DNA of 64,000 nt, from assembly GCA_949317995.1 (NCBI GenBank), contig OX439040.1, positions 74,807,972 to 74,871,971 on the forward strand. The letters run 5' to 3'. The position numbers and the translations under genes were made by a program. The first letter of the stretch is position 1. Each line of letters begins with the position of its first letter. Positions 850 through 59,676 of this stretch are shown piece after piece. Below the pieces are notes generated by a model. That model was given only the letters and a program-made list of their open reading frames with translations. It made no database searches and was not told the DNA's origin. The DNA comes from Acholoe squamosa (lineage: Eukaryota; Annelida; Polychaeta; Phyllodocida; Polynoidae).

Positions 850-885
<36 letters not shown>

Positions 886-964: not shown

Positions 965-1005
<41 letters not shown>

Positions 1006-1037: not shown

Positions 1038-1431
1038 TGGGTCAGGTCACCAGAAAGCAGTAGATTTTGTGTTTTTGGGTCATTTTGGACGTTTATGACT
1101 CTGGAGAAAGAAGTTGTGAACCAATCTTGTCTAACATAGACTCATTTGATAGAGAACTCCTAGGGCTATCAGAAAAATGTAAATTTGTGGTCATCCATCA
1201 AAAACTCCAGGACTTATAGCCTGCCGAAGTGAAAAAAACTGCCAAATTTCTTCTTTTTTATACTTTTTGTATTTTTACAACTGTCCTGTATTGAATAAAG
1301 AACACTATAGAGTATCCCAAAGTTATTTTTTGTATTGTATATGATCAAAGGTATCATTTCCGTGAAGTTTGGACATGTTACTAAGTGAGAATTTTTCATG
1401 ATGTGTCTTTCAAAATGGAAATCTGTCATTT

Positions 1432-1830: not shown

Positions 1831-1905
1831 ATGACACCAAACAAGCAATAAAAATGGAACAGGATGGCCTAGATCGGTATTTTTTGGTCTTCTGAGCTGA
1901 GGAGA

Positions 1906-1981
1906 TATGTGGATCAACACAGTAAAAGGTATGCCTGCGCACCCCCTCCTGGGCGTACCTTTTACCGTCTTGATCCACATA
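1906..1981. repeat. Imperfect hairpin, 30-bp arms
   Basis: Arms 1906-1935 and 1952-1981 are reverse complements with three mismatches around a 16-nt C-rich loop. Probably a fold-back element; no function visible. Confidence 0.65.
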
Positions 1982-18924: not shown

Positions 18925-19480
18925 GTACCTTAGCAGATGTGTCAAATTGGAGGCCCATTACGATCACAAATGTTTTTGCTAAACTGATCGAAAAATTAGT
19001 ACACTCACAATTATTGAATTATACTTTTATTTTTAGATCTCAAGAAAGCATTTAATATGGTAAATTTGGATATGTTAGTGAAAAAACTGCGTAGTATTGG
19101 ATGTGATAATGACTGTTTAAAATGGTTAAAAAGTTTACTATATGATAGAAAATAAACTACAATGGCCAATGGTATTTATTCAGATGAAAAGTTACTTGAG
19201 TGTGGGGTAGCACAAGGGACCATTATGGGTCCTTTATTATTTTATATTTATATAAATGATATAACCAGTGTACTCAACAACTGCGAGTTTTTCTTATATG
19301 CGTATGATGTGGCATTAGTGTTAAATGGAATTATACTTTTATTTTTAGATCTCAAGAAAGCATTTAATATGGTAAATTTGGATATGTTAGTGAAAAAACT
19401 GCGTAGTATTGGATGTGATAATGACTGTTTAAAATGGTTAAAAAGTTTCCTATATGATAGAAAATAAACTACAGTGAATA
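18925..19480 (+). pseudogene. LINE-1 RT palm remnant with internal duplication
   Basis: The sequence resumes with NWRPITITNVFAKLIEKLV (RT motif 2), then a deletion joins to LDLKKAFNMVNLDMLVKKL (motif A), GVAQGTIMGPLLFYIYIND (motif B) and FFLYAYDVALVLNG (motif C). The catalytic YADD is altered to YAYD, which removes one metal-binding aspartate. About 150 bp (19016-19165) holding motif A is repeated at 19328-19477, after motif C. A CAA-to-TAA change stops both copies at DRK*TT. The enzyme is dead. Confidence 0.8.
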
Positions 19481-22198: not shown

Positions 22199-22438
22199 CT
22201 GTAATGTCTCACATATAAGGCGCGTCTTATATGCGGGGTTTTAGTTCTCACTGGTTCCACAAGTGGGACACCAAGAGCTTTCTTTTGATATATTACACTC
22301 CTCCTAAGTGATAATATGAGATAGAGGGCTCCATTTAGACGAACAAAAGTTATGAATTTTTATTTTTCTGACCATATTCTTGAACTCTAGGTGCGCCTTA
22401 TACATGGGATGTGCCTTATACGCGGGAGATTATGGTAC
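22199..22438. mobile_element. Short TIR element (MITE)
   Basis: Left end CTGTAATGTCTCACATATAA with GGCGCGTCTTATATGCGGGG, right end TTATACGCGGGAGATTATGG. The ends are imperfect inverted copies with the repeated motif TATAAGGCGC(A/G). A 240-bp non-autonomous element fits; no target duplication was resolved. Confidence 0.5.
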
Positions 22439-22471
22439 TTTGATATTAATGTCATGTCTTCGTATTTTCAG

Positions 22472-22625
22472 TTGCCACAAGAACTTTGAAGGTCCCACTT
22501 GCAATGAAGAGATAACTACAAACTCACTGGTTGTATGCAGTATTGCATCAGGTCTGAGTGGCTTCATGCGTAGTGGTCTTGGGATTGGCTCACTCTTGTT
22601 GGCAGTGATGCACAGACCACAGTGA
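22472..22625 (+). CDS. Possible exon with the end of an EGF-like domain
   Basis: A good acceptor (CGTATTTTCAG) at 22471 precedes a frame reading CHKNFEGPTCNEE, the C-x4-F-x-G-x2-C signature closing an EGF-like domain. The frame then becomes hydrophobic (SLVVCSIASGLSG and GSLLLAV) and stops at 22,625. No neighbouring exon was found. The threonine-codon minisatellite begins 25 bp later in another frame. It could be a relic of a secreted or membrane mucin-type gene, or chance. Confidence 0.25.
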
Positions 22626-22639
22626 ACAATACCACAACT

Positions 22640-23345
22640 ACCACAACCACCACCTAGACTACCACAACTGCCACCAAGACTACCACAACCGCCACCAAGA
22701 CTACCACAAACACCACCAAGACTACCACAACCGCCACCAAGACTACCACAACCACCACCAAGACTACCACAACCGCCACCAAGACTACCACAACCACCAC
22801 CAAGACTACCACAACTGCCACCAAGACTACCACAACCACCACCAAGACTACCACAACCGCCACCAAGACTACCATAACCGCCACCAAGACTACCACAAAC
22901 ACCACCAAGACTACCACAACTGCCACCAAGACTACCACAACTGCCACCAAGACTACCACAACCGCCACCAAAACTATCACAACCACCACCAAGACTACCA
23001 CAACCGCCACCAAGACTACCACAACCGCCACCAAGACTACCACAACCACCACCAAGACTACCACAACCACCACCAAGACTACCACAACCGCCACCAAGAC
23101 TACCATAACCGCCACCAAGACTACCACAAACACCACCAAGACTACCACAACTGCCACCAAGACTACCACAACTGCCACCAAGACTACCACAACCGCCACC
23201 AAAACTATCACAACCACCACCAAGACTACCACAACCGCCACCAAGACTACCACAACCGCCACCAAGACTACCACAACCACCACCAAGACTACCACAACCG
23301 CCACCAAGACTACCACAACCGCCACCAAGACTACCACAACCATCA
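22640..23345 (+). repeat. 21-bp minisatellite coding for TTTTATK-type repeats
   Basis: About 33 units of ACTACCACAACCGCCACCAAG and variants. On the plus strand, after an early TAG, one frame stays open through the array as threonine-rich heptads (T-T-T-T-A-T-K) and runs on about 45 bp into unique sequence. Variant units (ACCATAACC at 22,871 and 23,102; AAAACTATCAC at 22,971 and 23,202) recur 231 bp apart, showing an 11-unit higher-order repeat. The long valine/leucine frame on the minus strand is an artefact. Confidence 0.9.
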
Positions 23346-23350
23346 GTATA

Positions 23351-26105
23351 CCATCATTTAGGCAGCCATCCTTCAGAAGGTAACCCTTGATTTCCTAAAG
23401 TTGTGAATACCATAAGAACTAGCATATAACTCAGGAGGGCATTTCTCAAGATGGTACGACTAGACACAACTTGTACGACTTCAAACCCCCAATATCAAAG
23501 TGGTTGATCGTAGGTAACACACTACAACTACTCTGTATGATCAGCACTTAAGGCAGTAATTCCATAGGGTTTGGTAGGGCAGTCATACCAGTGTAATTAT
23601 CAGTGACCACTAGAAGCAGGGCTGTAATGGCATTTAACTGAGGGATCTCACTACGACTTGAAGGGGGACTAGTCATACCATCTTGAGAAATGCCTTCCAG
23701 ATCTCAAAGGGTAAATAAGATACTTCTGGTAGGATGTGCCCCCGGGGGCAGGGGCACTGACTATATGTAGGTCACTCTTAACTGCCGCCCTACCAGCTCA
23801 TCTCCCAGTGATCTTGAAATCTGACCGCCCTACTTGACTGATAAGCTAGACATTGACTGCCCCCCTTTTTTGACAATCCCAAATATTGACTCGACCGCCC
23901 CCCCTATACCTTATTGTACTCATGTATTTGTATGGATCTGAATTTTTCATTGTCCAGCACCTTACCTTTTTATCACTTTCATGCCCTCATATGTATGGTG
24001 TATACATTCCTTTTGGGATCTAATGGAATTCCACCACTCTGCTATTAGAGATCTGATGTGAATCCCCCACCCCCCTTTTTTGGGATCGCATGGCAATCCA
24101 CCGCTCTTGAGAGTCGAGCTGCAGTTGATATCCATTTGATGGGCAAGTGCCCCCCTGGGGATGTGCCTCAACTTTTGTTATGGCTTTTTAGTCGGGTATT
24201 CATACTATAGTACAAAGGAAAATTGCCCTAGACCAAGTCCTATCTGCACATTCTAGCTGTACACTTTACAAGCACTGCATTAGTGCATCATTCTGATTGA
24301 GACTTCAAGAGTTTATATAAGTCCACATTGTTTATATACATTTCAGGTCATTTGGTCCTGATCGGTTTCCATTCTGTCAGTATTAACTATCATCATTTGG
24401 TATCCTAAACATCTCACATCAGTCTATGAAACACATTCTTCGCCATAGAGGGAATGTTTTTAATTGACCCATCTGAATAATCTTTATGAGGCCACTGATT
24501 TGATGTCCCTTGTTTAAGCCTATGGGTAGCTGGCATTCAAAAACATAAATACGCTGTGACAAGTTCCTCAACCACAGCAGTGGCCTAATGATGGGATACA
24601 AGGGTCACTTGATCCGAACATTGGGGTATTGGGAACAGGATCTGGGTTGCATAACAAACCTTTACAGGTCTACCCTCAACAGTTTTCATCATAGGATTTA
24701 ATACATTAAGGGGAAAAGAAATACAAAGATAACCTAATAAATGTTTTTACCAGAACTAGAAAGAATGTCAACATTAATGTTACTGACCCTATGCAATCGA
24801 TCGTCATGCTGTCAGTCCATCAGTAGCACTATCAGTTATCCTAATACCTGTAGGTTTTGATGATGTAAGCCCAACGTCTTGTCATGGCATTTATGATATA
24901 GCCCAGACTCCTGGACATTATGAATAGGTGTGATGACCATTCTATAAAGTGTATGTAAAACAGGCGATGGTATATTCAAGTTCATAGATGGAAGTTGTCT
25001 TCAAGAGTTGGTCCGCATGAATCAGAAGTAAAGTTGGTGAAAGAAGTGACGATGGTGAAATGTAATGCAGTTTTGTCAAATATCTTCATTTCTACTTAAT
25101 CTTAATTTAACTGCATTCATAATAATTTACAACTCTAGCAAAAGATAACCACTTAGAAAATAGTGAAAACAAAAATATTAGTAGCTGTTTGTAGGTTCTG
25201 ACATAAAGATAAGTAGAATTACTGTCAGATAATGTGTTCTGTGATAACAATCTGCCTTGCATTAACTGAAATCTCAGTATGGGATTATGTGACTATGCTA
25301 AGATCACAAAATTGTCTTTTTTAGCAGACCTGAAAAAATTTGAATGACAATTTGAGATTTTGCCCGGGTTACTCATGTGTAATCATAGGTGGTGCTGGAC
25401 AAATATGGGTTTCAACAAATATTGTATGGATTTTATTTTCTATAAATTGTTACGAACCATGAATAGTCTTGGAATATTTAGCAAAAGTACTGCTTTCACA
25501 AATTATTTCCATAGTCATTAATAACAAATAAGAAATAGGACGAGCTTTTTCACTAATATTACATACTTGTGTCACAATCTAACTAATGCTGTCATATAAT
25601 CTACACATCACTACAGATTCAATGTATGTGACCTCTGCTGATGTATTGGTGTTTAGATCTGGGACCAATGTTGAGGTTGATGTCCAGTCCTGTTTCAACC
25701 TACCAATTCTTCATGGTTGGACAAGTATCCTAAACTCCAATGTATAACACTTGGCTTTCATGCAACCACATCCCATGTTCATCTTATAGCATTGGCACAC
25801 AGAAGGTGTGGGGCCTGGAGGTGAAAAACTTACACAATAGAACAGTATCGTTCTGCCCAAAATGCTGATGGACAAATAAACTATGTTAGTGAATAAACAA
25901 AATTGAGAATATGCTTTGTTGTTTGTGCACGTGTGTTTTTACTTTTAATTGTGAAAAGGGAATCACTGATTCTGTAGTACAATACATCCCTTAGAAAAAA
26001 AAACTCCTAACATATCTTGTTAGTTCTTTATCTTATTTTAATGTTTTGGTCATGTCTTAGCTAACTCAAGCTCAGAATATATTAATATTATTCCATTCAT
26101 TAATA
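23351..26105. other. No gene recognised
   Basis: About 2.7 kb with short frames only and no repeat structure that I could identify. Confidence 0.4.
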
Positions 26106-27686: not shown

Positions 27687-28697
27687 CTATTTTTCAAAGT
27701 CTTCATGTTTTTCTCCATTATTAAAAAAGGCACTCAGAGTAATGGATCCTACAATGAGCACACACCCGGCTGCCTCCAGTACATTTCTTCTACCATACAA
27801 ATATGCACCAAGGAGGGTATACTGAAGGATCAGATTCAGCACTGTTTCAAGGTTTTTTATTATAGAGACATGTATTGGGCTTATCATTTGGCAAGAAGTG
27901 ACTAGTGTGATTCCTCCTAGTCCAGCTCCAACCACATGTATACAGATGATTAAGATGGTATATGGGTCAGTAATCCAGACTGGCTGTTCCAAGTAAAAAC
28001 TGCATATGAGACACAATGGTATTGTCACACCTGACATTGTAAAGATCAAAAGAGCGGGCTTGATCTTCTTCAGGTAAGTACCAGCCAGCAGAAGGAAGAA
28101 AGCCTCAAATACAGCAGAACCAACTAAAGCAATGAACCCAATGACGACCCACCATGTAGGACTTTTTACCACACAGTTATTTGTATCAGAGTTGGTGGCT
28201 GAGATGCTGCAGTTTGTTGTAGAAGTACCGAATCCTGGTGTAAATCCATGGGTGAAATTTTTCCAAGGCTGAATCAAGCAGATCATTCCAAATGTGCATC
28301 CAAAGATGCAGACAGAGAGTACTACGTTTGGTGATTTATCAATTGATATCTTTGCCAAGATTGCTACACCAATCATCGTACACACTAATTCAACAGACAC
28401 ATAGCTCAAAGGGATAATTGACGCTGCCAGAAAATGAAGGACATTAAAGCCCACGCTACAAATCCCAAGCAGCAGCATATGAAGGTAGGATTCCTTAGGT
28501 ATTTCAAGTTCTGTTTTGTTGAATCGCACAAACAATGCAGCAATGAGCATTAAACCGACATAACGAAGAACACCGAGCTGAAAGTCAGGCACTTTTCTGT
28601 ATAGTGTCTGTACAGCAGCTGAGGATGATGTCCACAGAATAGCATAAAGGACGCCAAGTCCATATCCGACAAGTGTCTTTTTGAAGTATGATTCCAT
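27687..28697 (-). CDS. SLC35G-like EamA-domain (DMT superfamily) membrane transporter, intronless
   Basis: An intact 336-residue frame starts at ATG with A at -3 (CAACATGG). Ten hydrophobic segments are visible at roughly residues 8-30, 40-59, 72-94, 96-114, 124-144, 182-208, 214-238, 248-272, 274-296 and 306-325. That is the two-times-five layout of EamA/drug-metabolite transporters, and the length is close to SLC35G proteins. The second repeat has the characteristic GLGGITLVTS, ISPIHVSIIKNLETVLNLIL and GAYLYGR...LEAAGCVLIVGS pattern. The loop at 148-180 has NFT and NCS glycosylation sequons. The C-terminus is short and charged. Substrate is unknown; relatives sit in the plasma or internal membranes. 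There is no intron, so retroposition or an intronless invertebrate expansion is possible. No TATA box is obvious upstream. Confidence 0.88.
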   Translation of the reverse strand: MESYFKKTLVGYGLGVLYAILWTSSSAAVQTLYRKVPDFQLGVLRYVGLMLIAALFVRFNKTELEIPKESYLHMLLLGICSVGFNVLHFLAASIIPLSYVSVELVCTMIGVAILAKISIDKSPNVVLSVCIFGCTFGMICLIQPWKNFTHGFTPGFGTSTTNCSISATNSDTNNCVVKSPTWWVVIGFIALVGSAVFEAFFLLLAGTYLKKIKPALLIFTMSGVTIPLCLICSFYLEQPVWITDPYTILIICIHVVGAGLGGITLVTSCQMISPIHVSIIKNLETVLNLILQYTLLGAYLYGRRNVLEAAGCVLIVGSITLSAFFNNGEKHEDFEK

Positions 28698-28936
28698 GTT
28701 GAAGTTTAACCGTTAAGTATTATTGGTGTCAATGTTATGTTATAAGACTGGGACTATGTAGCTATGTAGCATACACATACACATGCAGTACTATCAAAGT
28801 CATCTGTTAAATTGGTTTATGACTGAGATGAGTTTCAACGAAACATTAAACAGAGCTATTTTTGTACTTTTTTTATCAATTAAAATATTTTGACGTAGGG
28901 CTCAGTTAAAAGCAGATTGGCATTTTGGCCATGGTC

Positions 28937-41347: not shown

Positions 41348-42039
41348 ATGGAATTAGCCAGTTTGAGGGCTGATAATAACCGTTCTGTTCGTCAATTAAA
41401 AGATGAAATACGAGCATGGCAAGGAGCTATGGGTGCGTTCGACCCACAAGTTTCATCTCTTACCTTGGGTTCTACAGGCTTGGATCCCCAGGAGGGCAAC
41501 ACGGTAAGCTACGAAGGTAGGGGCCCGAACGCACCTGACAACAAAGATGGCCGTGCTGGACTTCCTGTCCAAGCTGCTACAGCAGATTACCAGAGTTTTC
41601 TGCCAAAACTTCAGTGGCAGGTAGATGAGGGTCATGGAGCACGGTCCTGGCAAAATACGATCATAAAGTGGTTGATGAAGTTATTGAGGGTAAATTAGTG
41701 AATTTTGTCTCCGGTTACACCCCAGCCGTAGAGGCTTATTTAAGTGCGGAACACATGACCGTAGTAGAGAACTTGCTGTCAAGACAAGATCAGGGTTCCA
41801 ATCGCCGTAACAACAGACGTTGCCGCAACCGCCAGCGGGGGGGGGGTAATCAGCCCGGATCGGATTGGCCCACGGACATATGTTGGAAATGGAACTCTAA
41901 TACATGCGATTATGATCCGTGTTACAAGAAGCATGTCTGCGCCACTTGTAGAGGCTCACATAAGAAGAAATTCTGTAATAGTGACGACGTGCAATCGGAT
42001 AAAAACGCTCATCAGCACGGCAACCAGAAAAATCAGTGA
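41348..42039 (+). pseudogene. Ngaro gag-like protein remnant
   Basis: Two overlapping frames (41348-41698 and 41668-42039). The second encodes WPTDICWKWNSNTCDYDPCY then KKHVCATCRGSHKKKFC, a Cys/His cluster like the zinc-binding region of DIRS/Ngaro gag proteins, after an arginine-rich stretch (about residues 45-65). A frameshift near 41,690 separates the two. Confidence 0.65.
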
Positions 42040-43145
42040 CTGGGCAACCATGCTTATACAGGTTTAGGCATAAGTTCCACATATGCAGATTGTTTGTCAG
42101 ACCTGTGGCCCAACAAGACAATTTCATGAGCTTCGGCACGAGAGCTGCCCCCTATATATTCAACAGTATATCCGATGCCATAGCTCGCTATGTCAACGCC
42201 AATGGCTTTTTATGCCGGAATTATTTAGATGACTTCATCGTTCTTGGTAGTGATTATGAGGAATGCAGGAACGCTCAGCTGTTTCTCCACGCTACAATAC
42301 CCTCGCTAGGCTTCCATATAGCTTATGCTAAAGTTCGATCCCCCTCACAGGTGCAGCGTTATTTGGGGGTGATCTTGAACTCGCTTGATATGACGCTCAG
42401 CTTACCACAAGACAAGTTGGACAAGCTTCACTTAGAGCTGCGCTTTTTTGCTGGTCACCGTGGGGCGACAAAGCGCCAGTTGCAACACCTTTGTGGTGTG
42501 CTAAGTCACTGCTCAACATTGGTACGGGGAGGAAGAACTTTCTCCCACAGGGTCATAACGATGTTACATGTGTTTACTGCAAAGAAACGTTATATTACAC
42601 TGTCGGATTCATTTTACGAGGACTTGAAATGGTGGGGCGACTTCGCCTCATGGTTCAATGGCTCAGCGAAGATTATCACTCCGCCTGAATTCACTTCACT
42701 TGTGTACACTGACGCTTCTGGTATAGGTTATGGTGCCGTTCATGGTAATGATTGGTTATGCGGTCACTGGTGTGACAAGCTAGTGTTGGATAGTGACATT
42801 CACGGTCATTGCCGGGACATACCGACAACGGAGATACCAGCCAATATTAATGTCAGGGAACTCTATCCCATATACGAGGCTTTAGAACGCTGGGGTCCAT
42901 ATTGGAGAGATCACAAAATATATTGTGTTACTGACAATACACAAGTTATGCATGCCATCAACAAGGGTAGAAGTGACAATGACGCCTCAATGATATTGTT
43001 GAGAAAAACTTTTTGGTTATGTGTTATATTTAACTGTCACTTAGTGAGTATTCATATCCCTGGTGTACAGAATGTTCTAGCAGACGCGATTTCAAGGGCC
43101 ACATGCTCTAAAGATTTGCCCGTATTTCTTTGTTGTAGACGCTAG
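42036..43145 (+). pseudogene. Ngaro reverse transcriptase (C-terminal part) and RNase H
   Basis: A long open frame of 369 codons. It starts partway through the RT palm (FMSFGTRAAPYIFNSISDAI), has the catalytic YLDD in CRNYLDDFIVLGSDYEE, and a thumb with YLGVIL and KRQLQHLCGVLSH. RNase H follows with TSLVYTDASGIGYGAV, INVRELYPIYEAL and VTDNTQVMHAINKG, keeping the D-E-D residues. The RT fingers are missing: the gag zinc-cluster frame ends where the palm begins, so several hundred bases are deleted near 42,040. Confidence 0.85.
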
Positions 43146-43152
43146 TTAGCGA

Positions 43153-44103
43153 GTGCCCCAATTAGACTTGGAAGCAGCCGAGTATAGGTCCAAAGCATGG
43201 GCCCCCAGTACGTGGAGGACAAAGGATTCCCAGTGGAAACGTTACATAAGCTTCAGTAACTCGATCCTCAGACCAGCGCTACCCACGGATTCCCAACATA
43301 TGTGCCGTTATGTCGCAGACATGGCTAGGAATCTTAAGTACTCGACTATCCAACATTACGTCAGCGGAGTGATCTCATTGAATATGTACTATGGTTATGA
43401 TGTTAAGTTTATCCGCTCTTCCTTTGAATTCATTATGACTCTAACCAGGGTTCGCAGGATCTTAGGTGATCCGGAACCAGTGCGCCCATCATTCACTTTG
43501 AAAGACATACTCAATATGTATAAATTTGTCGACATGAGTCAAACTCGTGACAGAGTCCTATGGACCTGCCTGGCACTAAGCTTTAGAGGACTACTCAGGA
43601 AATGTAATATAGTCCCAGACTCTGTCGCAGCTGTTGGAGTTCATTATCTCAGGCGCGGAGCGGTTAGTTTCACAGACTGGGGCATGGAACTGGCCGTGTC
43701 TAGTTCTAAGACTATTCAGCACGGTTAGAGAGTAGACAAGGTGCCTATCACCTAAGCCCCCGGATCTCCTCTATGTGCTGCGAGTCTAGTCAGACGTCAT
43801 CTAAATGAATTCCCCAGTTCTGACCCATCAGTGCCAGTTTTTGTACTTCCCAAGGATTCTGAACTGGTACCAGTCACATACGGTCAATTGTTGAAATTTC
43901 TGAAAAGGTTAATGTTTTTAGCTGGTTTACCTTCAGAACGCGCTGGCATGCACTCCCTCAGGAGAGCGGGAGCTCTATACATGTACCGTATGGGGCTCAC
44001 TTTGGAGGACATACGCCAGGCCGGGGACTGGGCCAGTATGGCCGCCTTATTGTACCTGACTAAACCCTATCACACACGTATCGTGACGGACATGGTAGTG
44101 TAA
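43153..44103 (+). pseudogene. Ngaro tyrosine recombinase
   Basis: Frame 43153-43728 has the N-terminal SAM-like region (STWRTKDSQWKRYISF, MCRYVADMARNLKYSTIQHY) and the first catalytic arginine in LSFRGLLRKCN. A stop at 43,726 interrupts. The frame from 43,831 holds MHSLRRAGALYMYR (HxxR), RQAGDWAS and LYLTKPY with the likely nucleophilic tyrosine. So R, HxxR, W and Y are all present. The enzyme joins element circles to target DNA in DIRS-order elements. Inactive because of the stop. Confidence 0.85.
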
Positions 44104-44218: not shown

Positions 44219-44550
44219 GCCGGTAGTTCTGTTAAACTGGCCCAAGTCCATCACTGTGTTATTCCCTTGTCCCTCTCACCGTAAAGGATTAATGTGAGGG
44301 AACGATTATATTGTTACCGGTATTCATCCTCAGGTGGAGCCACTGCTCCTCTACAGGTGTGTTACCTGTCAGGTGCTGACCTACATTGCTGCTACCAACC
44401 CTCATGCTGGAGGGTCTGGTGCTTGGTCACAGCTGGGAAAAATTCTTTCTTTTCTTTCTTTTGTTTTTTTGTTCAATAAATAGGCCGGTAGTTCTGTTAA
44501 ACGTCCATCACTGCATTATTCCCTTGTCCCTCTCACCGTAAACGATTAAT
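44219..44550 (+). repeat. Ngaro B1-A2-B2 split direct repeats
   Basis: B1 (44219-44292) and B2 (44484-44550) share GCCGGTAGTTCTGTTAAAC and end CGTAAA(G/C)GATTAAT. Between them A2 repeats the left end A1 and continues (ACC(CT)CATGCTGGA, TTGGTCACAG). A1 is shortened by a deletion. Confidence 0.85.
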
Positions 44551-44772
44551 AGAGAGTAAGAATATCAAGCTCTTATTAGTGCTATTCCAGTTATCACTGG
44601 TTTATTCAGCTTAGGCAGAACATGTTATGTATCAGTAACAACATGGCAGGACAGGGTTGAGCAGTTGAAAATAGGGCTGCAGGATTTTGGCAAATATATT
44701 AGGATATACATATAGGAACTGAGTCAAACTTGACATACTGCTACATAAAGGTTCCAGGAAACCACTTACATA

Positions 44773-45352
44773 ATGTCTAACACTAGAGAAGGGTCTCAGA
44801 CCAGGAGGAGAGGAAAAGAAATAGAAATGCTGTCGCCGGAAGCCACCTTAAAGGATGTAATTGCCGCTGTCAATTCAATTGACAAACGAGTCAAAACGGT
44901 GGCATGACATGAAGAATAGTCTCGATGGGTTCAAAGACTCTATAAATACCCTAAATATCACCACCACCACCATAAATTCTACTCTGGACGGTATAAGAAC
45001 TAGGCTTACCTCCACAGAAGGAACAATGGATATAGTATCCACCACTGTCAAGGAGACGGGGGACGCCATGACGGCTCACATGCAGAATATTCAGGCCCAA
45101 ACAGAATTGTTACTAAAACATACACAGAGGTTTGAGAAAATAGACGAGGACATCAAGAGAAAAATAGTCGTAGTCAAAGGTCTAGAGGAATCTGATAATG
45201 AAAATTTATTGGAAAAAGTCAACCAACTATTCAGGGACGTGCGCGCGGATTTCGGCACCGAAAGCATACAAAGTTGCAGTCGTGAAGGAGCACCTATCAC
45301 AAGAAACCAAGATGGTGGCACCCATGATAAAAACAAGAAACCTTCCGTCTGA
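44773..45352 (+). pseudogene. LINE-2 ORF1, N-terminal and coiled-coil part
   Basis: Starts MSNTREGSQTRRRGKEIEML and continues LKDVIAAVNSIDKRVK; a stop at about 44,907 requires a shift into the frame 44861-45352. That frame has heptad-like helices (SLDGFKDSINTL, MDIVSTTVKETGDAMTAH, LLLKHTQRFEKIDEDIKR) and then KIVVVKGLEESDNENLLEKV with LFRDVRADFG, the first half of the RRM-like domain of LINE ORF1 proteins. This is the trimerising, RNA-binding part of the element's ribonucleoprotein. Confidence 0.75.
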
Positions 45353-45360
45353 TTAAAATA

Positions 45361-46086
45361 GTGTTCAACAATGTGTATACAAAGGCCAAGCTGATGAAAC
45401 TTCTGAAAAATCTAAAAGAAAAGTTCTTATACAAACATGTATCAATCGGGGACGAGCTGGGCGAGACTGAACAGCGAGAGTTTAATGATCTACGAGCAAT
45501 GCACTACTTAGCTAAAAGGCAGGGGTACAACACACAGTTGAGACAGCGCAAGATCATAATAGACAAGAAACCATTTGAATATAATCAACTCCACCAATTA
45601 CCCTACCAAGATCTAAATATGCAGAGAGCAAATGAGGCTGAAACACCGGACGGGCTTATGTTCAAGTCGCATCACCACAAACTATCTAACCTTTACCACT
45701 GTCAGATGTCCTATAGAGGGGTAGAATACAACAGCTCTGAGCAGGCATATCAAGTATCCAAAGCCCAAGCATGTGGTCAGAAGAACCTGGTCCTATCCCT
45801 GAAGAAGTTAGAAGATCCGGTAGAAATTATGTATGAAGCCAGGAAAATCAGACCCACAACGGAATGGAACAAAATGGCTGCTACGGTCATGCTAGAAGTC
45901 AACAAAGAGAAATTCTCTATACCATGTATGAGAGACTATCTAATCTCCACTGGGGATAAGAACTTGTATGAAGCTAGCTTTCACCCGATATGGGGGGTGA
46001 AGATGCATTTCGGACAGGCTAATCAGTGTACGACTGGAAATATCAAGGGTGAAAACCTTATGGGACAAATCGTACAGAAAATTTGA
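45361..46086 (+). CDS. LINE-2 ORF1 C-terminal domain fused to NADAR (ADP-ribose N-glycosidase-like)
   Basis: One open frame of 241 residues, entered by a frameshift and stop from the upstream ORF1 segment. Residues 1-85 are the ORF1 C-terminal domain (KAKLMKLLKNLKEKFLYKHV, LAKRQGYNTQLRQRKIIID). Residues about 100-241 are NADAR: LSNLYHCQMSYRGVEYNSSE then QAYQVSKA (conserved E127), W169 in TTEWNKMAATVMLEVNKEKF, YLISTGDKNLYEAS, PIWG (W211) and KGENLMGQIVQKI. These equal the SNF..SEH.FQ.QK, W..V, LL.T....L.E, YWG and (K)N.LG..LM blocks of YbiA. NADAR proteins cleave N-glycosidic ADP-ribose linkages, including ADP-ribosyl-guanosine in DarT1-NADAR modules. No NADAR residue is obviously missing, so the fold may be intact. 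Function in the LINE is inferred. Confidence 0.85.
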   Translation: MFNNVYTKAKLMKLLKNLKEKFLYKHVSIGDELGETEQREFNDLRAMHYLAKRQGYNTQLRQRKIIIDKKPFEYNQLHQLPYQDLNMQRANEAETPDGLMFKSHHHKLSNLYHCQMSYRGVEYNSSEQAYQVSKAQACGQKNLVLSLKKLEDPVEIMYEARKIRPTTEWNKMAATVMLEVNKEKFSIPCMRDYLISTGDKNLYEASFHPIWGVKMHFGQANQCTTGNIKGENLMGQIVQKI

Positions 46087-46419
46087 GTACAACTATCCAA
46101 AGAACCTGGAAATCCAGATGAGGAATAATAATTTCCTGAATCGATAATAATGCTTTTGTTATATACATGTTTAGTAGTTCCTTAGATGAAAGGATGTAAT
46201 AGCCTCTAAACTTTAACTGCAAAACTCATACATTATTTACATGGGTAGCCACAAGAGCTGTAAGCCCGTGGTGGGAGGGGGGTATGAAATTATTTATCGC
46301 GCATGGCATAGATTTGCTTGGTCCATAGTAACATGTATTTGGAGAGAGATCGAACACTTATGTATAAAGAAGATGTTTACTGGCAAAGTCGAATTTATTT
46401 ATGATTCTTTAGAATTAAT
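46087..46419 (+). other. LINE-2 spacer between NADAR and ORF2
   Basis: About 330 bp without an open frame, placed where an intergenic or ORF2 translation-start region would be. Confidence 0.5.
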
Positions 46420-47188
46420 ATGCCTTTAAAAAATAAATTTAGAAAAGGTTTCTCAATTGTACACATGAATGCTAGGAGTGTGAGAAATAAGTTTACTAAG
46501 ATCAAAGAAGAATTAAATGATAGTTTTATAGATATTATACTATTTTCAGAGACATGGTTGAATGAGATGGATTGTAGTAAATTATATAGCTTCCCAAGAT
46601 ATAATCTTTTTCGCCAAGACTGTATCAGTATTTATAGAGGCGGTGGTTTGTGTGCATATGTTGATGAGGGTCTATCATGTTCAGTTGACAAGTTTAAAAC
46701 CTTAAACAGAATTAATGAAAACATAGAAGTTCAATGGCTATTATCAGCCAAAGGTGCAAATAAAAAATGTATTGTGTGTAATATCTAGACCACCCTCAGG
46801 TAACCTTATGGAATTTTGTAATACTATGCGAGCTTTACTTCTACAAATTGATAATCTAGATGGATATGATATTTTCATTCTTGGAGACTTCAATGTAAAT
46901 ATATTAACCAACACACCAGATAAACAGCTTCTTATAGAAACCTTTGATCATTTTCACTTGGTACAACTCGTTAATGAGGTCACAACCACATCAGGTACAA
47001 ATACGTGTATAGATTTGATTTTTTCAAACTGTGATACTATCACCTCTAGTGGTCCACTAAACATACATTTGTCAGATCATTTACCGGTACATATTCAAAA
47101 ATCCCAAATACATGTAAAAAAGAATTACAGAACCTTCCTCGGAAGATCATACAATAAGCTAGATTTAGAAAATTTTATTCAGACCTAG
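46420..47188 (+). pseudogene. LINE-2 ORF2, AP-endonuclease domain
   Basis: Two overlapping frames (46420-46788 and 46754-47188, one frameshift). Motifs in order: SIVHMNARSVRNKFTKIKEE, IILFSETWLNEMD, YRGGGLCAYVDEG, FILGDFNVNIL, and CIDLIFSNC with LSDHLPVHI. The catalytic E (SETWL), D/N (GDFN) and H (SDH) are present. This domain nicks the target to prime reverse transcription. The start is taken at MPLKNKFRKG, where the frame opens. Confidence 0.85.
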
Positions 47189-49234
47189 AAAATTGTAATT
47201 GGAATTATTTTAATCAATCGAATGATCAATGTGTTTGCTGGACCATACTGGAAAATATGATTAAAATAATGCTTGACTTACAATGTCCTTTTAAAAATTT
47301 TAAAGTTGTAGATAAGCCTAGTCCATTGATGTCAAATGAGCTTCTTAAAAGGATTAACGACAAAAATGTATTATTAAAATTAGCTAGACAAAACATGGAT
47401 ATTATCTCCTGGCACAGAGCCAGAGAGTGTAGAAACAAAGTTAACAGAGAAATAGAACTGGCCAAAGAGACTTATCATTCCAATTTGTCTGAGATTTTTA
47501 AGAACGATTCTAAAAAATTCTGGAGTACTATGAAAGACATCCTACCTTCAAAAAAAGGCAATAATAAATCAATTATGCTAACAGACGAAAATGGCCATGT
47601 AATCTTGATTAATGATACATCTACTTATATAAATAATTTTTTCGCAGAGATTGGACCTAGACTTGCTGAGCAACACCAAACTATTTTTAATTTCAAAGGT
47701 ACTCGCTGTGAGGTAGACATGCCAGATATGAATTTTACAGATGAAGAAATCAAAAAATGTTTGTCTGATATAGACACATCTAAGTCATCTGCCATTGATT
47801 ATTTATCCACCGATATATTTAAAAAAACTATGATTAAATTTCCTCAAAAATTCATTAAAATTATTAATTTGATTACAAATACAGACCAAATTCCAGATAG
47901 CTGGAAAATTGCTACGGTGACTCCATTACCAAAAGGCAGGGATCCGTCCAACGTGTCAAATCTCAGACCGATTAGTGTCCTACCGGTACCAGGCAAAATT
48001 CTTGAGAGACTCATACACAATAAACTAAGTGAACATTTAGATAGATTTGATATATTATCGAAAAACCAAGGAGGCTACCAGAAATGTAAATCTACACTCG
48101 ATTCTATCTCAGTATTAGTTAATGATGTATTAGAAAATAGAAATGAAGGCAATGTAACAATGGCTGCTTTTATAGACATGAAAAAGGCCTTTGATTCAGT
48201 AAACACTTGATATTATTAAAAAAACTTAAACAATATGGAGTCAGAAATAAAAATCTAACTTTAATAGAAAATTACCTGTCAAGGAGACAACAATGTTCTA
48301 TAGCCAACCATATACGTTCTGAACGAGCTAACTTATCATGTGGAGTGCAACAGGGCTCAATTTTGAGTCCTTTGTTCTTTTTATTGTATATTAATGACTG
48401 CATTTCTGAAAATGATGTACATAAAACCTTGTTATATGCAGATGACTCAGTACTATACGTATCAGGAAAAAATATAGATGTATTAACAAATGAACTTTCT
48501 ACTGCACTAAATCCTTTCTCTCTTTGGTCCTCGGCTAACAAACTTACAATGAATGAAGCTAAAACAAAAATCATGACCTTTGCTTCAGCAATCAAGTTGA
48601 AAAGAATGCATAAGCCTAAAATTGTTCTAAACAGGAAAACTTTAATGAATGTCCAATCGTATAAATATCTAGAAGTTACCCTAGACCAAATAATGAATTT
48701 TAATATGTATGTGTGAAATGTCATAAAAAATCATTAATCTTGTATAAAACTAGGAAATATCTATCTACCACAGCAAGAATAAGAATGTATAAAATGCATA
48801 TTATACCAATTATTGATTACTGTGATATATTATACAATGGAGCTAAGGCTGAGCTGCTATTAGAACTTCAGCGACTGCAAAATAAGTGTCTAAAGACCTG
48901 TTTAGATGTCCATATATTGACTCCTACCAAATTTGTACATAGAGAAACGGATACTCCCATGCTAGAAGCTAGAAGACTTTATCATATTAAAATGCTTGCT
49001 CATAAAAGATCAACAATGGAGGAATATATTAAACCGACAGTAAGAAATACAAGATTTTCGAGTGCTCCTGTACTAAACTACAGGAAAATAAATTGTACAG
49101 CATATACAAAATCTCCTGAATGTCTATGTGCCCAAACATGGAATAATCTTGAAACTGATACCAGAAATATAAGAGATAAAGATAAATTCAAGGCTATATC
49201 TAAGAAATGCCTGAATCAATCCATCAATGTATAA
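47189..49234 (+). pseudogene. LINE-2 ORF2, reverse transcriptase and C-terminal region
   Basis: Frame 47257-48210 has the basic linker, NFTDEEIKKCLSDIDTSKSS, VTPLPKGRDPSNVSNLRPIS, RLIHNKLSEHL and FIDMKKAFDSVN (motif A). A frameshift at 48,207 leads to 48207-48716 with GVQQGSILSPLFFLLYIND and the intact catalytic YADD. A second shift leads to 48713-49234, the thumb and C-terminal region (TARIRMYKMHIIPIIDYCDI, LQRLQNKCLKTCL). A stop at 47,186 also separates it from the endonuclease. All motifs survive, so the inactivation is recent. Confidence 0.9.
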
Positions 49235-49779
49235 ATTATATTGTAAAATAATTATACAAACTGTAACTGAAATAATATCTAAGAACCTATACCATAATGT
49301 GCAATGTTAAACGACTACTTAAGACCATACTTAGAGTGTTCTACATCGACTCTGTCAATCAATGTATAACTTAGTTAGAATCTGACTGTACCAATGCATG
49401 TTGTAAATATCAATTATAAGACAGGGGGAGGGAAACAATCATTATTGTACTTAAAGTAGATTTAGAGTGCCCCAAATTGTTCAAAATATTATTATTATAC
49501 TTTATAATTCTATGAATACTGGTAAGAATTTAAATGGTCAGATCATAACAACATTTTCTAAATGACGATCTGGTCATTAACAGTTTGGTCATGTTAATAT
49601 CACTATAAATTACCTTATAACAAGGGTAATTATGTAATATATTATTGTATGTACTTAGGTTACTATACAAAAATGATATTATATCCAACGGACAGCGATA
49701 TATACACCACGAGCCTATGTTTACATGATGAATGTACCTTAAGACCAAATAAAGTTTAAATCTGTTAAAAAAAAAAAAT
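49235..49779 (+). other. LINE-2 3' UTR and poly(A)
   Basis: Follows the RT stop, contains AATAAA at 49,748 and ends in twelve A. It marks the 3' end of the insertion. Confidence 0.75.
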
Positions 49780-49871
49780 CAGTAATACAAATGTTAATAT
49801 ACAGGTAATTTCCACACACAGTAATTATACAGTTGGTTATAAAGTATAAAGTTATGTTCCACTCCACCTGT

Positions 49872-49872
<1 letters not shown>

Positions 49873-49952
<80 letters not shown>
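49873..49952. repeat. (AAT)n microsatellite
   Basis: About 26 AAT units inside R1, grown at the place where copy 1 has only a short ATTAATAATA. Confidence 0.95.
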
Positions 49953-52921: not shown

Positions 52922-54115
52922 TTTTTTTTTTTTTTAAATATCTTTATTGCCAATAAAGTAGGTTACCGGTACAGATCAATCTTAACGTCTTTGTTGAATA
53001 GTCTTAAGTTCTAGGAATGTTTCAGGTATTCCTTACTAATGGTATTTTCTTTTAATACATTAATTCAACAGGTATCTATGTATATACTTCAAATAGAAAT
53101 AGATAAATACGACGGAGGTCTTATCTGGTCTCCTACCGGTAGATCATAGTATATCAATTATCGATTATCAACCACATAATTTGGTACAATTTGTTCAGAA
53201 AGAGTCAATATATATACAGTAGCATAGTATTAAGCAAAAACCTCATTAGGTCTTCCGCTTTAGTTCATAGAATATCAAACAATGAGGAATACAGTGAGAA
53301 TTTAGACTAAACTCTTATTAATCATGTCTTTTTCATATGGCAAAAAGAAAGCTATGGACCTCATCCCCACTAAATTAGTGTTATGGGTTGATCCTTCTGG
53401 TCCTAGCTATTTAAACATTTTAATAAAATAGAAAACTAGACACTAGAAAAGGAATATATTTGAAATTGATAGGGAGAGGGGAGAGGGTCTGGGAAAACAT
53501 GTAAAATTACATTAATTTGGAATAGGTTGATTGTAGGGTAGAAGGGATTTAAGATATGTTCTAGTATCATTTTTAAATATTTCTAAGGTTTCAGTGTTCC
53601 TTCTACCACATGTTAAAGCATTCCATGTTATGGCACCATGAAACTCCACACTTCTAATATAAGAAAGACAATTTGGAGTAATTGTTTTACATAAAGGGGC
53701 ATCATGTTGTCTGGTTTGTAGTCTATTTACAATCTTGTAATCCAGTGATCTCGAACGGCTATACATATAGTTTATAGTATGAGCAAATCTTCTGTCTATT
53801 AATTTATTACAACCAGTAACATTGTGTATTAAATTTGTGTTTGTAATATGAGGTACTTTCAGGCATATTTTCAAACATCTATTTTGGGCATATTGTAGTG
53901 GATCCAAATATTTTCCATAAGTTGTTGAGAAACATATATCAGCATAATCCATATAGGGAAGTATAGTAGTTTTATAAATTTTCACTGATAATTTCACATC
54001 TAGATATTTCCTTAGTAAACACAGTTTATATGTTTTAGAAGTGATAGTCTTAATCTGTTTTTTTAGGTGGTATTTGTAAGAGTGTCAGTAGACCGTTATA
54101 GGTATTGTACTTATC
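52922..54115 (-). mobile_element. LINE-3: 5'-truncated LINE fragment
   Basis: On the minus strand it ends with AATAAAG and an A-run (T-run at 52,922-52,935 on the plus strand). The frame 53512-53997, extending in frame upstream to about 54,065, encodes an RT thumb and C-terminal region: YKLCLLRKYLDVKLSVKIYK, TILPYMDYADICFST, AQNRCLKICLKVPHITN, AITWNALTCG. This is the same region as the LINE-2 C-terminus but clearly diverged. Catalytic motifs are absent through 5' truncation. Confidence 0.8.
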
Positions 54116-54761: not shown

Positions 54762-54812
54762 ATGGTGGAAAACCCTCACGTATCATCCCACAGTTACCAC
54801 CTCTCATGAGCC

Positions 54813-57806
54813 ATGGACAACAGTGAGACCCTACCAAAGGAGCCAGCCCCACAATGTATCCTCACATCTCCAGACAGAGATCAGCAAGAAGCCACCAGAA
54901 CACAGTACACCACCCCGAAAGACTCCTCACCAGACGCGCTCCAGCTGGACCCAGTGCTGCCAGTCCACAGACGTACACATAAACAAACACCTGTGAGTTC
55001 AAACACCTTACATTTTTCGTCCACTATAGTGGACACCAACACAGGTGCACATGCCAGCACACCAGCAGGAGCCTCACCACCAGGTTTAGACCTCACCCTA
55101 CCTGGTTATTCACCCTCAGAATCACCACCCCTAAGATTAGGTGGTCTTCAAAATACCACATACAGCACGCCTGAAAATCAATCACCTGATCACCTCCACC
55201 TAGATCTAGAAGAAAGATCCAATAGCCTCCAGGACGCCCTGGAAGCTGCTAGACATTCATTTTCATCCAGCACTGATTCTGGTCCACAGTGTACACCCGA
55301 CCTAAGTTGGGACAACCTCACTGTACTAGATATCCAAGCCCACCCATCAGTAGCAGACGGTACTGGAGGAGCAGGTTAGACTCAGCAATCCACAGGTGGA
55401 GAGAAAATAGACTCAACACAGGACGTGCACAGCAAGTACCCACCGGCGCTACACCAAGCTACCAGTGTGGTGAGAGCCCCTCTGTTTTCCTAGATAGGAT
55501 AAACCGTATTCTAGAAGAGCAGTGGCAAGACAGCTCCAACCTCAGCAACTTACTAAGGCTTCACCAACACCCACAGCCGAATAGCAACCCACCTGGAGGC
55601 AACCTCAGGTCTTACTACACCTACTCCACTTCCGAGGAAGACGAGGCGACACCTCCAGTACCAAATCCATCCCTGAGCACGCCACCAAGGGCCAGATCTT
55701 TTGAAAGGCCAAACCCCACCCATAGGCCCAGGAGAAGGGTACAATCATCCTCCTCTCACAGCCCAAATACACCTGTATTTTACAGACCTCAAAGAAGCCT
55801 GGACTCTGCAGCTAGAAGAGGCAACATTGTGGCTACTACTCCCATCCTACACAGGAACAGTCACATCCCCGCCCACTTACAAACAGAACCTACTTCAGAA
55901 GAAGACACAGAAGTAACTTTCCCCCACCTGCACAGAGTACCTGCCTACCAAAATATGGCCACTGCAGCCCCACCCCCAGAGTATAACCAGGACGACATGA
56001 CCAGGAATATAGTGAGAGAATGCACTCAAGCAGTCAATGACTCCCTCTCCAACCTTCTGACAGGACAAATGAACTTATTGTCTGCTGAAATAAAAAGGAT
56101 TGGGAACGACTTCTCCTGCCAACTGTCAAGAATTAATGACAGATTGAATGACATGGACACCTGGTAATCACACCTGAAAAATGACATTGGCCACATACAA
56201 AGAAGAGCAGCTCAGGACAGTGCTGATGTCCTGAGAAGGTCTGAAATTGCGTCAGCCAATCTGTCTGACAGGATCAACAAAAACATTGATGGAAAAGCCA
56301 AAGCAATCCATTCTCACCCACCAACACTAGGTTACCCCCCTCAGGTCAACCTTCACAGGCTATGGGCACCTCTACCAGAACGCCAACATCATTGCCAGTA
56401 GGGTACAGGCTCAGCCCCCCAAGGGTTTTCCAAAATACAGCCTGCACCATAGCGACAGGTGCCACGCCCACCCACCAAGGCACGACACATGCAGGTTTTG
56501 GCAGTTCGGCCATGACCCACCAGATGGCGCCCTCTACCACCCATCCATTACCGGTAGCCGCCACTTCATCCTCAGGCAGTGTGTACAACCATGTATACAC
56601 ACCCCACCAGGCACACACGCCCTACAACAACCCTATACCCATGTATAGTTTGTTTACAAACACATCACCGGCCTAAGCAGCTGCCCACCACCCTGTAGCT
56701 CAATCCACCCCAATTATACCAAATCTCACATCTGCTCAATTAAGCTGTTTCAACAAACCAGAACCCTTTGACAAGCCCTCACCCTACAGGTCTGCAGCCA
56801 GATTTCTGGCAGAATTCAATTCTATATAAGAAATGCATACCTCCACAGCCCAGCAATGCATGCATCCTGTATGTATACCTTTTTAAAGGGCAGAGCAGCA
56901 CAGTGGTTTTTCACAAACTTTTTTGATAAACCAGTCATGTATGACACTGAGGCAGTCTATACTGCTTTTCTCAGCAGGTTCAACCAGCCTGACCCTGCCA
57001 CAATAATCATAGGGTATAGAAACAGAAAACAGCAGCCCAAAGAGACTGTAGAGGAATATATAGCAGATATGACCTTATTGCTATCCAACAGCAACCTGGA
57101 TGAGCCTGTACAAGTGGACTATCTCATAAATGGCCTCAAGGATGAAATAAAAAATGTTGTACTCTCAGACACCCCCAAAAGCATTAGAGAGGCTGAGACT
57201 GCAGCATTAAAACAGGAATTGGTCATAGAAGCAGCTAAAGCAGCCCATGCCTCAAGCCAACCTTCAGACTTCTGTGCCATGAACTATAATAACTACAATG
57301 GGCAAAAGAACAACAACAACAACAATAACAGATCCAGGAAAGACCAGTACAATAACAACAGTTATAACAACAAGTCCTCTGGAAACGGCAACAATAAGCA
57401 GTATGACGATAAATCCAAGTCAGAATACAACCAAAATCAGCAAGGCTACAACAACTCCAGATCCGGCTCAAACAACAGGTCTAACTCCAAGAACAGATAC
57501 CAGTCACCAGGCAGGAGCAGATCTCAAGAAGGCAACAAAAGCAGATCTAAGTCCACTGACACAAGAAATAATTTTGTCTTCATCCCTGTTGCCTCCACCC
57601 CCACTAACACCCGCCAGGTGTCCTTCCAAAAGCTCCTAGTCCCAGCAGACTTCCCGATCCCTGACGATTGGACCCAGCAACAAAAGAAGAAGTCTAGGGA
57701 TCCAACACCAAGCAGAAACGACAACAAAAGGACCAGAGATAACCATCCTGACAACCAACCTCCTGATTCTGGACAAGGAGATCATTACAATGACAATATT
57801 GAATAG
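54813..57806 (+). pseudogene. Gypsy-B gag
   Basis: Broken into frames 54813-55379, 55385-56167, about 56,170-56,676 and 56856-57806. The first two are long, proline/serine/threonine-rich and disordered. The last holds the capsid-like retrotransposon gag domain: FLKGRAAQWFFTNFFDK, FLSRFNQPDPATIIIGYRNR, KETVEEYIADM, QVDYLINGLKDEIKN. It is followed by an asparagine-rich stretch and a basic SR-rich tail (GRSRSQEGNKSRSKS) and no CCHC knuckle; the SR tail may take over RNA binding. Several frameshifts and stops make it a pseudogene. Confidence 0.8.
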
Positions 57807-57851
57807 GAACCAGGGGAGGGCCATCATGCATCTTACGGCCCCGCCCCCACA

Positions 57852-58380
57852 TTGGGCAACAAACTTGGAACGCCCCCCACATGCCATATTTCACACATGA
57901 ACAATGGAGCAGAATTAAATTCAGCAGAACAACAGGACCGCGACCCCCACCTTGTGAATTGTGATGAAGACTCCTCATCAGACAGTGAGGACCTCTATGA
58001 GAACCAGAACAAGAGGATTTCCACCCTCCAATTAAAAGTCGAGACCAGTAAGTATGGGCAGCAAGGTAAGACCTCTTACATTAATACTGAATTGACTAAA
58101 GGCGCAGTTAATGTTGATATCAATGGCAGTTCTTACAGAGCCCTAGTAGACTCTGGAGCCTCCCTTTCCTTTATCAGCCAGAAAATGGCAGACAAAATAG
58201 TATCAACCCCCAATTCCAGACATGGTAGGAGATCCCGTATGGTTATCCTACTAGCTGATAAATCCTCGGTTCAGGTCAACAATTCCATCACCATAACCTT
58301 TTAATTGATAACACAGAGTTTAAGACAAGACTACATGTTGTCCCAAAGCTAAATCACCCCCTAATTCTTGGCGTAAACTT
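57852..58380 (+). pseudogene. Gypsy-B aspartic protease
   Basis: The frame 57852-58304 has ELTKGAVNVDINGSSYRALV followed by DSGASLSFIS, with an intact D-S-G catalytic site, and NSRHGRRSRMVILLADKSS. A stop at 58,304 precedes the continuation LHVVPKLNHPLILGVNFM with the ILG motif. The enzyme would process the gag-pol polyprotein. Confidence 0.85.
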
Positions 58381-59676
58381 TATGACCAAATATAGGGCCA
58401 AAATTTCCTTTGGAACCAAATCTCCTTCACCACACTTCATAAGAGCAGCCAAAGGTCTAACCATGCCACCAAATTCTGAATCCACATTCAATGCAATCGT
58501 CATAGGACCTGATTCCTTAATAGGCAAAACAGGCATCACAGAAAATGTTGACACGACATTACCGGTACTAATCAAACATGCCCTTGTTGAACCAAGGTCA
58601 ACAAGAAAAATTATACCGGTAACAGTGGCCAACCCAAATGATTTTTCCATCAACATCAAAAAGCACATGAACCTAGGTGTTTTTGCACTTAACAATCTAA
58701 AGAAAGCCATTCCCATTGGAAAACTGAACAGCCAACACTCCCTCAATAGCATAATCTCTGACAAAGACATGCTCCCCATCAATTGTGGAGATGATCCCCC
58801 GGATCAACTACCCAAAGGGGATGACCCTCTAAAATATACAATAGGTGACAAACTCACTGAAGCCCAAAAACAACAAGTCAAAAACATTGTTGAATCAAAC
58901 AGAAAGGCCTTTGTGTTGTAATCCATAGGATTAAATGTTGAAAATGAAGTCAAATTAGAATTAATCCCTGATTTCAAACCCTGCAACAGACCATCCTATA
59001 GAATGTCACCCAAGAAAGAGATTTTCCAAAGAGAGCTATTGGAAAAACATTTACAGCAAAATGTCATTGAAGAATGCACCAATCCCTGTGAGTGGAATTC
59101 CCCAGCTTTGTTGGTCCCCAAACCCCAGGAAGACAGATCTGTAGCCTCAGGATGGAGGATAGTCGTGGATTAAGATGGGTTAACCAAAACCTAAAGTCTT
59201 TTTCCTACTCCTTCCCCAGGGCAGACGACCTCATGCAACAAGTTGGCAGAACAGGTGCTAAATATCTTTCCAAATTGGATGTATACAGCGCCTACCATCA
59301 GATTCCTCTAGCTAAAGAATCCAGGCCCTTAACAACCTTCTCTGCCAATGGTACAAGATATATGGCCAAGGTACTACCCATGGGTTTAAAAACTTCTGGT
59401 TTGTCATTCATGAATGACATGGCCATATACAGCCCTACATGGGAAAGGCACCTCCAAGACCTACATGAAGTGCTAAAACTTTTCATCAAAGGAAACATCA
59501 AATTAAAATCTGAAAAATGTGAATTTGGCACCACAAAAATGGAATTCTTAGGCTTTACCTTAGATCAACATGGCATATCACCTTCCCCAGACAAAATCTT
59601 GCCAGTTAAAACCTTCCCAGCACCTAAAAACATCCACGACCTTAAGGTGTTTCAATGGTATGGCACAATTCTATAA
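58381..59676 (+). pseudogene. Gypsy-B reverse transcriptase, catalytic motif deleted
   Basis: The frame 58382-58921 is the protease-RT connector. RT follows with frameshifts: NPCEWNSPALLVPKPQ, GWRIVVD, YLSKLDVYSAYHQIPLAKES, LPMGLKTSGLSF. Then MNDMAIYSPTWERHLQDL follows directly; the stretch of about 30 residues that should lead to and include the YxDD motif is gone, so the metal-binding aspartates of motif C are missing. LGFTLDQHGISPSPDKI marks the thumb. Stops occur at 58,919 and near 59,170. Dead enzyme. Confidence 0.85.

Follow-up and report, generated by a model that had tools for sequence, protein, structure and literature searches.

A NADAR domain within a LINE insertion

The window, as the whole stretch of DNA analyzed here is called, comprises 64,000 nucleotides of the polynoid annelid Acholoe squamosa (contig OX439040.1, positions 74,807,972 to 74,871,971). 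It contains a long interspersed nuclear element (LINE) whose first open reading frame (ORF1) encodes an RNA-binding part joined to a NADAR domain. The element is one insertion unit, and further copies as well as several LINE groups of the genome show the fusion too. The window copy is decayed, and the ORF1 protein of its family is almost certainly a single chain consisting of a coiled-coil-like part, an RNA recognition motif (RRM), a C-terminal domain (CTD) and the NADAR.

The NADAR is encoded by a single open frame of 251 amino acids (aa) at 45331 to 46086 (plus strand), with its stop codon at 46084 to 46086. An earlier interpretation of the letters without database searches (the sequence-only reading) had joined the ORF1 RNA-binding part to a NADAR in one frame. 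This fusion was found here and is open in other copies; the frame ends where it had been placed but starts at 45331, 10 codons before the start given for a 241-aa frame. The Pfam NADAR profile (PF08719) upheld the domain assignment (E = 5e-19, 69.6 bits, cut-off 35.1), matching residues 114 to 250 over profile columns 9 to 157 of 163. The window frame stops slightly early, since sister copies extend about 14 codons beyond its end. A sequence search of the PDB with the frame (E up to 1) found one chain, the NADAR of P. nicotianae (8bau, E = 1.4e-6), and in structural comparison, including that with YbiA, the domain has the NADAR/YbiA fold.

The element is flanked by direct repeats of ATCAGTAA, the second of which is preceded by a short A-run, indicating target-primed insertion of a single unit with the NADAR inside it. 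The surrounding DNA is an older repeat, a second and uninterrupted copy of which lies at 18858 to 18667 (minus strand) of the window; the flanks of the LINE (44554 to 44625 and 49771 to 49886) match neighboring segments of it. The apurinic/apyrimidinic (AP)-type endonuclease and reverse transcriptase (RT) that the sequence-only reading had placed downstream were recovered in broken ORF2 frames (Exo_endo_phos_2, E = 5e-7; RVT_1, E = 4e-11 and 3e-15). ORF1 of the window copy has its ATG at 44773 and suffers two breaks ahead of the NADAR-bearing frame, and ORF2 is scattered over five overlapping frames, three of which have Pfam matches above the cut-off (one endonuclease, two RT). The first endonuclease frame (46405 to 46788) had no notable Pfam match and is 68% identical to L075, a locus of the sister family described below. 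The coiled coil in the N-terminal part of ORF1 was called by eye, the Pfam matches there being weak and all under the cut-off. Pfam found no transferase in the seven main plus-strand frames of the element (shorter and minus-strand frames were outside the scan), and the DarT gene that accompanies a DarT1-linked antitoxin in the same unit was absent from those seven frames.

Table 1. Coordinates of the LINE insertion and its parts in the window
Feature	Position	Strand	Basis
Whole LINE insertion, about 5.1 kb, short A-run at end	44639..49777	+	Flanking target-site duplications; surrounding repeat has an uninterrupted paralogue
5' target-site duplication, ATCAGTAA	44631..44638	.	Read from sequence
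3' target-site duplication, ATCAGTAA	49778..49785	.	Read from sequence
ORF1 start, 44 codons then stop (frame 1 of 3)	44773..44907	+	Agrees with intact sister copies at the N terminus
ORF1 middle (frame 2 of 3), helical region resembling a coiled coil, then the RRM start	44861..45352	+	Coiled coil: inspection and weak Pfam matches
ORF1 end of RRM, CTD and linker (frame 3 of 3)	45331..45630	+	Alignment to intact ORF1s; profile link to LINE-1 ORF1p via sister families
NADAR domain, Pfam stretch, in the same frame as the RRM-CTD part	45670..46080	+	
ORF2 endonuclease, overlapping frames 46405-46788 and 46727-47188	46405..47188	+	Exo_endo_phos_2, E = 5e-7, on second frame
ORF2 reverse transcriptase, frames 47158-48210 and 48195-48716	47158..48716	+	RVT_1, E = 3.6e-11 and 2.5e-15
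ORF2 C-terminal part, further frame	48704..49234	+	No Pfam match; 61% identical to L075

Elsewhere in the window, fragments akin to the ORF2 of this LINE (28 to 38% identity) lie at 17130 to 19380 (plus strand) and 53512 to 54084 (minus strand). Retroelement remains at 42003 to 44103 (plus strand), which we take to be DIRS-like, contain RT/RNase H-like and tyrosine-recombinase-like frames and are accompanied by a stretch repeated at 44219 to 44293 and 44484 to 44550. Broken gag- and RT-like frames at 54810 to 59676 (plus strand) presumably belong to a Gypsy-type long terminal repeat (LTR) element. A 341-aa open frame at 27687 to 28712 (minus strand) presumably resembles a drug/metabolite-type membrane transporter, and a tandem repeat at 22430 to 23394 has several open frames on both strands.

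Active site, genomic copies and selection

The catalytic glutamate and lysine of NADARs (E88 and K95 of the E. coli C7 NADAR) were mapped via E43 and K50 of 8bau. Across 49 distinct places of the window family, E137 was kept in 48, K144 in 49 and E214 in 48, so that the family has the catalytic Glu and Lys of the NADAR superfamily as well as the glutamate of the final beta strand (E125 of 8bau) that passages of PMC11125620, together with PMC11543638, give as the mark of the YbiA subfamily. D171 of C7, a NADAR of the DarT1-linked type, is structurally equivalent to E125 of 8bau (PMC11543638); the corresponding position is E in 48 and D in 1 of the 49 places, the C7 sequence itself not being in the alignment. 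Both glutamates were kept in all 21 rows of alignment A1. The residues E127, W169 and W211 highlighted in the sequence-only reading correspond to E137, W179 and W221 of the 251-aa frame; W221 is conserved within the window family but not in 5 of 8 other rows. Most of the ADP-ribose contacts checked, and the NADAR fold itself, are retained in the window family.

The genome (1.48 Gb, 63 contigs) was searched for further copies. With the NADAR, the best 150 of 3224 first-look candidates were scored, and all 150 were above the cut-off; 143 had no internal stop and 90 lay in frames that run 400 aa or more without a stop. The two best were standalone genes, and ORF1 was read only in fetched loci. 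With the window protein, the best 150 of 3110 candidates were scored, and the 29 best others were 89 to 95% identical. The protein search supplied 30 fetched loci, one of them the window copy; 10 of these have open ORF1-NADAR frames of 458 to 464 aa, and ORF1 and NADAR are therefore kept in one frame in other genomic copies. Neither outcome that the sequence-only reading had named as refuting it, the lack of a significant NADAR match or of another copy with both parts in one frame, was observed. Endonuclease coding follows downstream in all 30 loci (tblastn), the ORF2 match beginning 264 to 329 bases past the ORF1-NADAR frame in 28 of them and 572 and 817 bases past it in the other two. Four loci (L021, L027, L034 and L038) are open from the start of the endonuclease through the end of the fetched stretch.

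Selection was estimated from 60 loci (L009 to L068), which represent 49 distinct places and 11 duplicates; 13 of the 49 have a stop within the 251-aa stretch. The ratio of nonsynonymous to synonymous divergence (dN/dS) was calculated by pairwise Nei-Gojobori comparison, in which the pairs are not independent. For the 19 places that came from the DNA search alone, the dN/dS of the NADAR was 0.76 at a proportion of synonymous differences (pS) below 0.1 (46 pairs), 0.18 at pS 0.1 to 0.3 (62 pairs) and 0.10 at 0.3 to 0.5 (63 pairs). For the 30 protein-fetched places, it was 0.17, 0.09, 0.06 and 0.04 in rising pS classes, the last being above 0.5 (20, 72, 104 and 239 pairs). The corresponding values for the RRM-CTD part were 0.69, 0.15, 0.07 and 0.06 (DNA-fetched) and 0.17, 0.06 and 0.05, with the last class saturated (protein-fetched). 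Ten full-length frames picked as intact gave 0.10 for the N-terminal part, 0.06 for the RRM-CTD and 0.05 for the NADAR. The NADAR is under purifying selection, about as strong as that on the RNA-binding part, and the pattern is what would arise if inserted copies degenerate while the lineages that go on replicating retain the protein.

Retention of the catalytic residues together with purifying selection fits an enzyme, and on these grounds catalysis is likely to be retained in the NADAR of the family. Because many copies keep both the fusion and the active site, the element probably uses its NADAR. A chance open frame is ruled out by the Pfam match, the open fusion in other copies and purifying selection, and a chance insertion by the one-unit LINE with its target-site duplication, the recurrence in other copies and, again, selection. 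The idea that a host NADAR fragment was captured once and is carried without use could draw on the broken state of the window copy and on the standalone NADAR genes of the genome, but it is scarcely credible. The dN/dS is 0.04 to 0.10 in the most divergent classes, and a sister family (L072 and L075), whose ORF1 shares 57% identity with the window frame and whose ORF2 pieces share 55 to 70%, keeps the fusion and the counterparts of E137, K144, W179 and E214. Synonymous sites between the window family and L072 are saturated and yield no usable dN/dS. The low identity of the window NADAR to the standalone genes (22 to 23%) also speaks against it. Use-free carriage is refuted for the family and holds only for the single decayed window copy.

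The two standalone NADAR genes, L001 (1486 to 2151, minus strand) and L002 (1336 to 2076, minus strand), have open frames and are 63% identical to each other. Each is 51 to 67% identical to the six best matches listed for it, among them named NADARs of annelids, nemerteans and hemichordates. A recent capture of a host NADAR is unsupported at 22 to 23% identity. NADARs were found in many invertebrates (named matches). In a NADAR tree of 54 chosen rows, the 12 rows labeled as retroelement (10 from this genome, P0002 and P0003) were all on the same side of a branch (support 55/84, found in 54% of bootstrap trees), and branches were long; the tree neither shows nor excludes one origin. P0003, a predicted protein of Tegillarca granosa, has a NADAR behind an unrelated N-terminal part and is possibly another mobile-element fusion. 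Among 5.8 billion proteins, the window frame alone gave 187 candidates, none with E <= 0.001, and profile A2 gave three matches; no match was found in the viral contigs searched.

Other NADAR-LINEs and the shared ORF1 module

Further LINE groups of the genome carry a NADAR in ORF1. L069 has a 530-aa ORF1 with a NADAR and an L1/Tx1-type ORF2, an 854-aa piece of which matches LINE-1 ORF2p in the PDB (E = 4e-74); a 173-aa RT fragment of the window element matched no LINE RT there. L008 and L071 have a 506-aa ORF1 with a NADAR, two further frames and a 982-aa open endonuclease-RT frame. The two extra frames, which lie between ORF1-NADAR and ORF2 (119 to 760 of L008 and 3925 to 4599 of L071, both minus strand), have an SGNH/GDSL-like look, and the second is weakly GDSL-like by Pfam (E = 4.5e-5, under the cut-off). 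By eye, a similar frame lies downstream in each of L004 and L006, and possibly in L073. L070 encodes a 757-aa ORF1 (467 to 2737, plus strand) with the NADAR in mid-protein, an SGNH-like C terminus by eye and none of the RRM-CTD part of the other families; a 1087-aa endonuclease-RT frame follows, cut by the end of the stretch. L073 and L074 have ORF1s with a NADAR, as read from ORF1 stretches alone. Of these RTs, that of L071 is closest to the window RT (33% identity over 336 aa, E = 4e-52; 36% over 151 aa), compared with 26 to 31% for L070 and 26 to 28% for the L1/Tx1-like L069. Judging by motifs, we take the window and L071 elements to belong to the CR1/L2 part of the LINE tree.

The stretch before the NADAR is related among most of these ORF1s. 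Within a set of ten sequences, over which the E-values were calculated, a profile built from L006, L008 and L074 found L010, L072, L069, L073 and the metagenome protein P0002, and did not match L070 or the Tegillarca protein. Profile A7, which comprises the same three loci and P0002, matches the LINE-1 ORF1p structures 2ykp and 2yko (E = 0.002) and aligns with the window family (hhalign) across 154 columns, as far as the NADAR linker (E = 5.5e-6, probability 85.7). Through this sister-family profile, the window family has the L1-type RRM and CTD of Type II ORF1s. The modeled ORF1 part before the NADAR had no strong structural match among the matches listed, which is no evidence against that part. 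A related pre-NADAR stretch next to different ORF2s indicates that an L1-type RRM-CTD-NADAR ORF1 has been paired with different ORF2 types. Since a NADAR is also present in an ORF1 lacking the RRM-CTD part, the sequences point to one module and at least two fusions. Exchange of ORF1 among LINEs is known from passages of PMC4120745, and the finding extends this reticulate evolution to an enzyme domain common to distant LINE groups.

Possible role and known systems

ORF1 proteins bind the RNA of their element, and by coating it the protein would hold the NADAR on that particle. There, the NADAR would act as an N-glycosidase removing ADP-ribose, most likely from guanine, because this is the linkage on which tested NADARs act; according to PMC11543638, eukaryotic NADARs conserve the hydrolysis of ADP-ribosyl-guanine in DNA. 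The cleaned target may be the element RNA, its single-stranded complementary DNA (cDNA) or proteins of the particle, and the NADAR would undo the action of a host ADP-ribosyltransferase. The sequence-only reading, borne out here as to the fusion, had proposed such erasure from the RNA or cDNA of the element, or a counter to a host ADP-ribosylation defense. Such an eraser tethered by ORF1p is the best explanation overall, with a probability of about 0.5; the ADP-ribose-erasing role on the particle, taken by itself, falls just short of an even chance. The role of NADARs in animals is called unclear in passages of PMC11125620, and purifying selection on a retroelement NADAR points to a substrate in the element's own RNA, cDNA or particle.

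A role in RNA processing without any host conflict, in which the NADAR would act on element RNA or NAD-linked RNA (at the 5' end or in trans-splicing), is rather unlikely. The fusion to an RNA-binding part would suit it, processing of the RNA intermediate is proposed in passages of an Ectocarpus paper (PMC12477816), and the nematode trans-splicing factor SNA-3, which is tied to the cap-binding complex, needs its NADAR domains according to passages of PMC9303266. Literature passages, however, name no RNA substrate of a NADAR.

Several points weigh against an ADP-ribose eraser. According to passages of PMC11125620, in E. coli, NADARs outside DarT operons retain hydrolysis yet are inefficient against DarT1, so that conservation does not name the substrate. 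Two of eight ADP-ribose contacts, the counterparts of R93 and D130, are changed in the window family: the former is Ala in 49 of 49 copies, and the latter is Pro (48 of 49) or, in another alignment, His or Asn, and never Asp. Other families vary more: among the eight aligned NADAR-LINE ORF1 rows from beyond the window family, the R171 counterpart is always K, H or D, and five rows have F, M or Y in place of W221; K144 is replaced by R in L069 and L008. Given this variation, the substrate, the rate or even the activity may differ. The copies compared were also those that matched best, which favors conserved protein, and the 19 DNA-fetched places answer this only in part. The changed contacts would suit a binding module that reads ADP-ribose, for example at PARP-marked breaks during target-primed reverse transcription, or that only shapes the particle, and LINE integration does make DNA breaks. 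Conservation of both glutamates and the lysine in 48, 48 and 49 of 49 window-family copies, and of both glutamates throughout A1, argues for catalysis instead, and a binding module is less likely again than RNA processing.

Beyond the window family, we tentatively suggest that the RNA-coating proteins of several unrelated LINE groups within one animal genome acquired an ADP-ribose eraser, through a shared RRM-CTD-NADAR module and at least one separate fusion. If so, retrotransposons of that animal would face a nucleic acid ADP-ribosylation defense, the LINE would be the counter-defender, and the conflict would parallel that of DarT and NADAR in phages and bacteria. A NADAR active on the particle would give a direct handle on whether animals mark parasite nucleic acid with ADP-ribose, for which the family offers matched intact and changed versions.

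Compared with the P. nicotianae NADAR 8bau (28% identity across the structural match) and E. coli YbiA 2b3w (20%), the window NADAR has lost the R93 and D130 counterparts and, unlike both, sits behind an RNA-binding domain. The RRM-CTD part that links sister families by profile to LINE-1 ORF1p is shared with Type II (L1-type) ORF1s, described in passages of PMC4120745 as coiled coil, RRM and CTD; unlike these, the window-type ORF1 has an enzyme domain added C-terminally. Phages likewise carry NADARs (passages of PMC11125620). In the invertebrate RNA viruses of PMC9503650, passages of which propose that the NADAR undoes host ADP-ribosylation, it lies in a polyprotein beside the polymerase gene of a replicating parasite, as in the window element, which differs in being a LINE with the NADAR on its RNA-binding protein. 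A known LTR retroelement with a captured NADAR is alike in retroelement capture and unlike in its LTR type, the protein concerned and the host lineage.

Whether NADAR-carrying LINEs had been described, a question left by the sequence-only reading, is answered by Tx1 LINEs of Crassostrea gigas, for which PMC12477816 passages report, via a Repbase query, a NADAR (there YbiA-family) in ORF1. A further NADAR-LINE paper was not found among the matches listed, the YbiA/DUF1768 literature query being too loose to show absence. The oyster and window elements have in common a NADAR in the ORF1 protein of an invertebrate LINE. The window RT is nearest L071; the oyster sequences were outside the comparison, and L069 is likest to them by RT type. 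For the oyster LINEs, the passages report neither a test of selection nor a count of intact copies nor a check of the active site. As far as the literature searches reach, the NADAR in LINE groups with other RTs is new, and so are the module that they share, the number of long open frames, the test for selection and the map of the active site.
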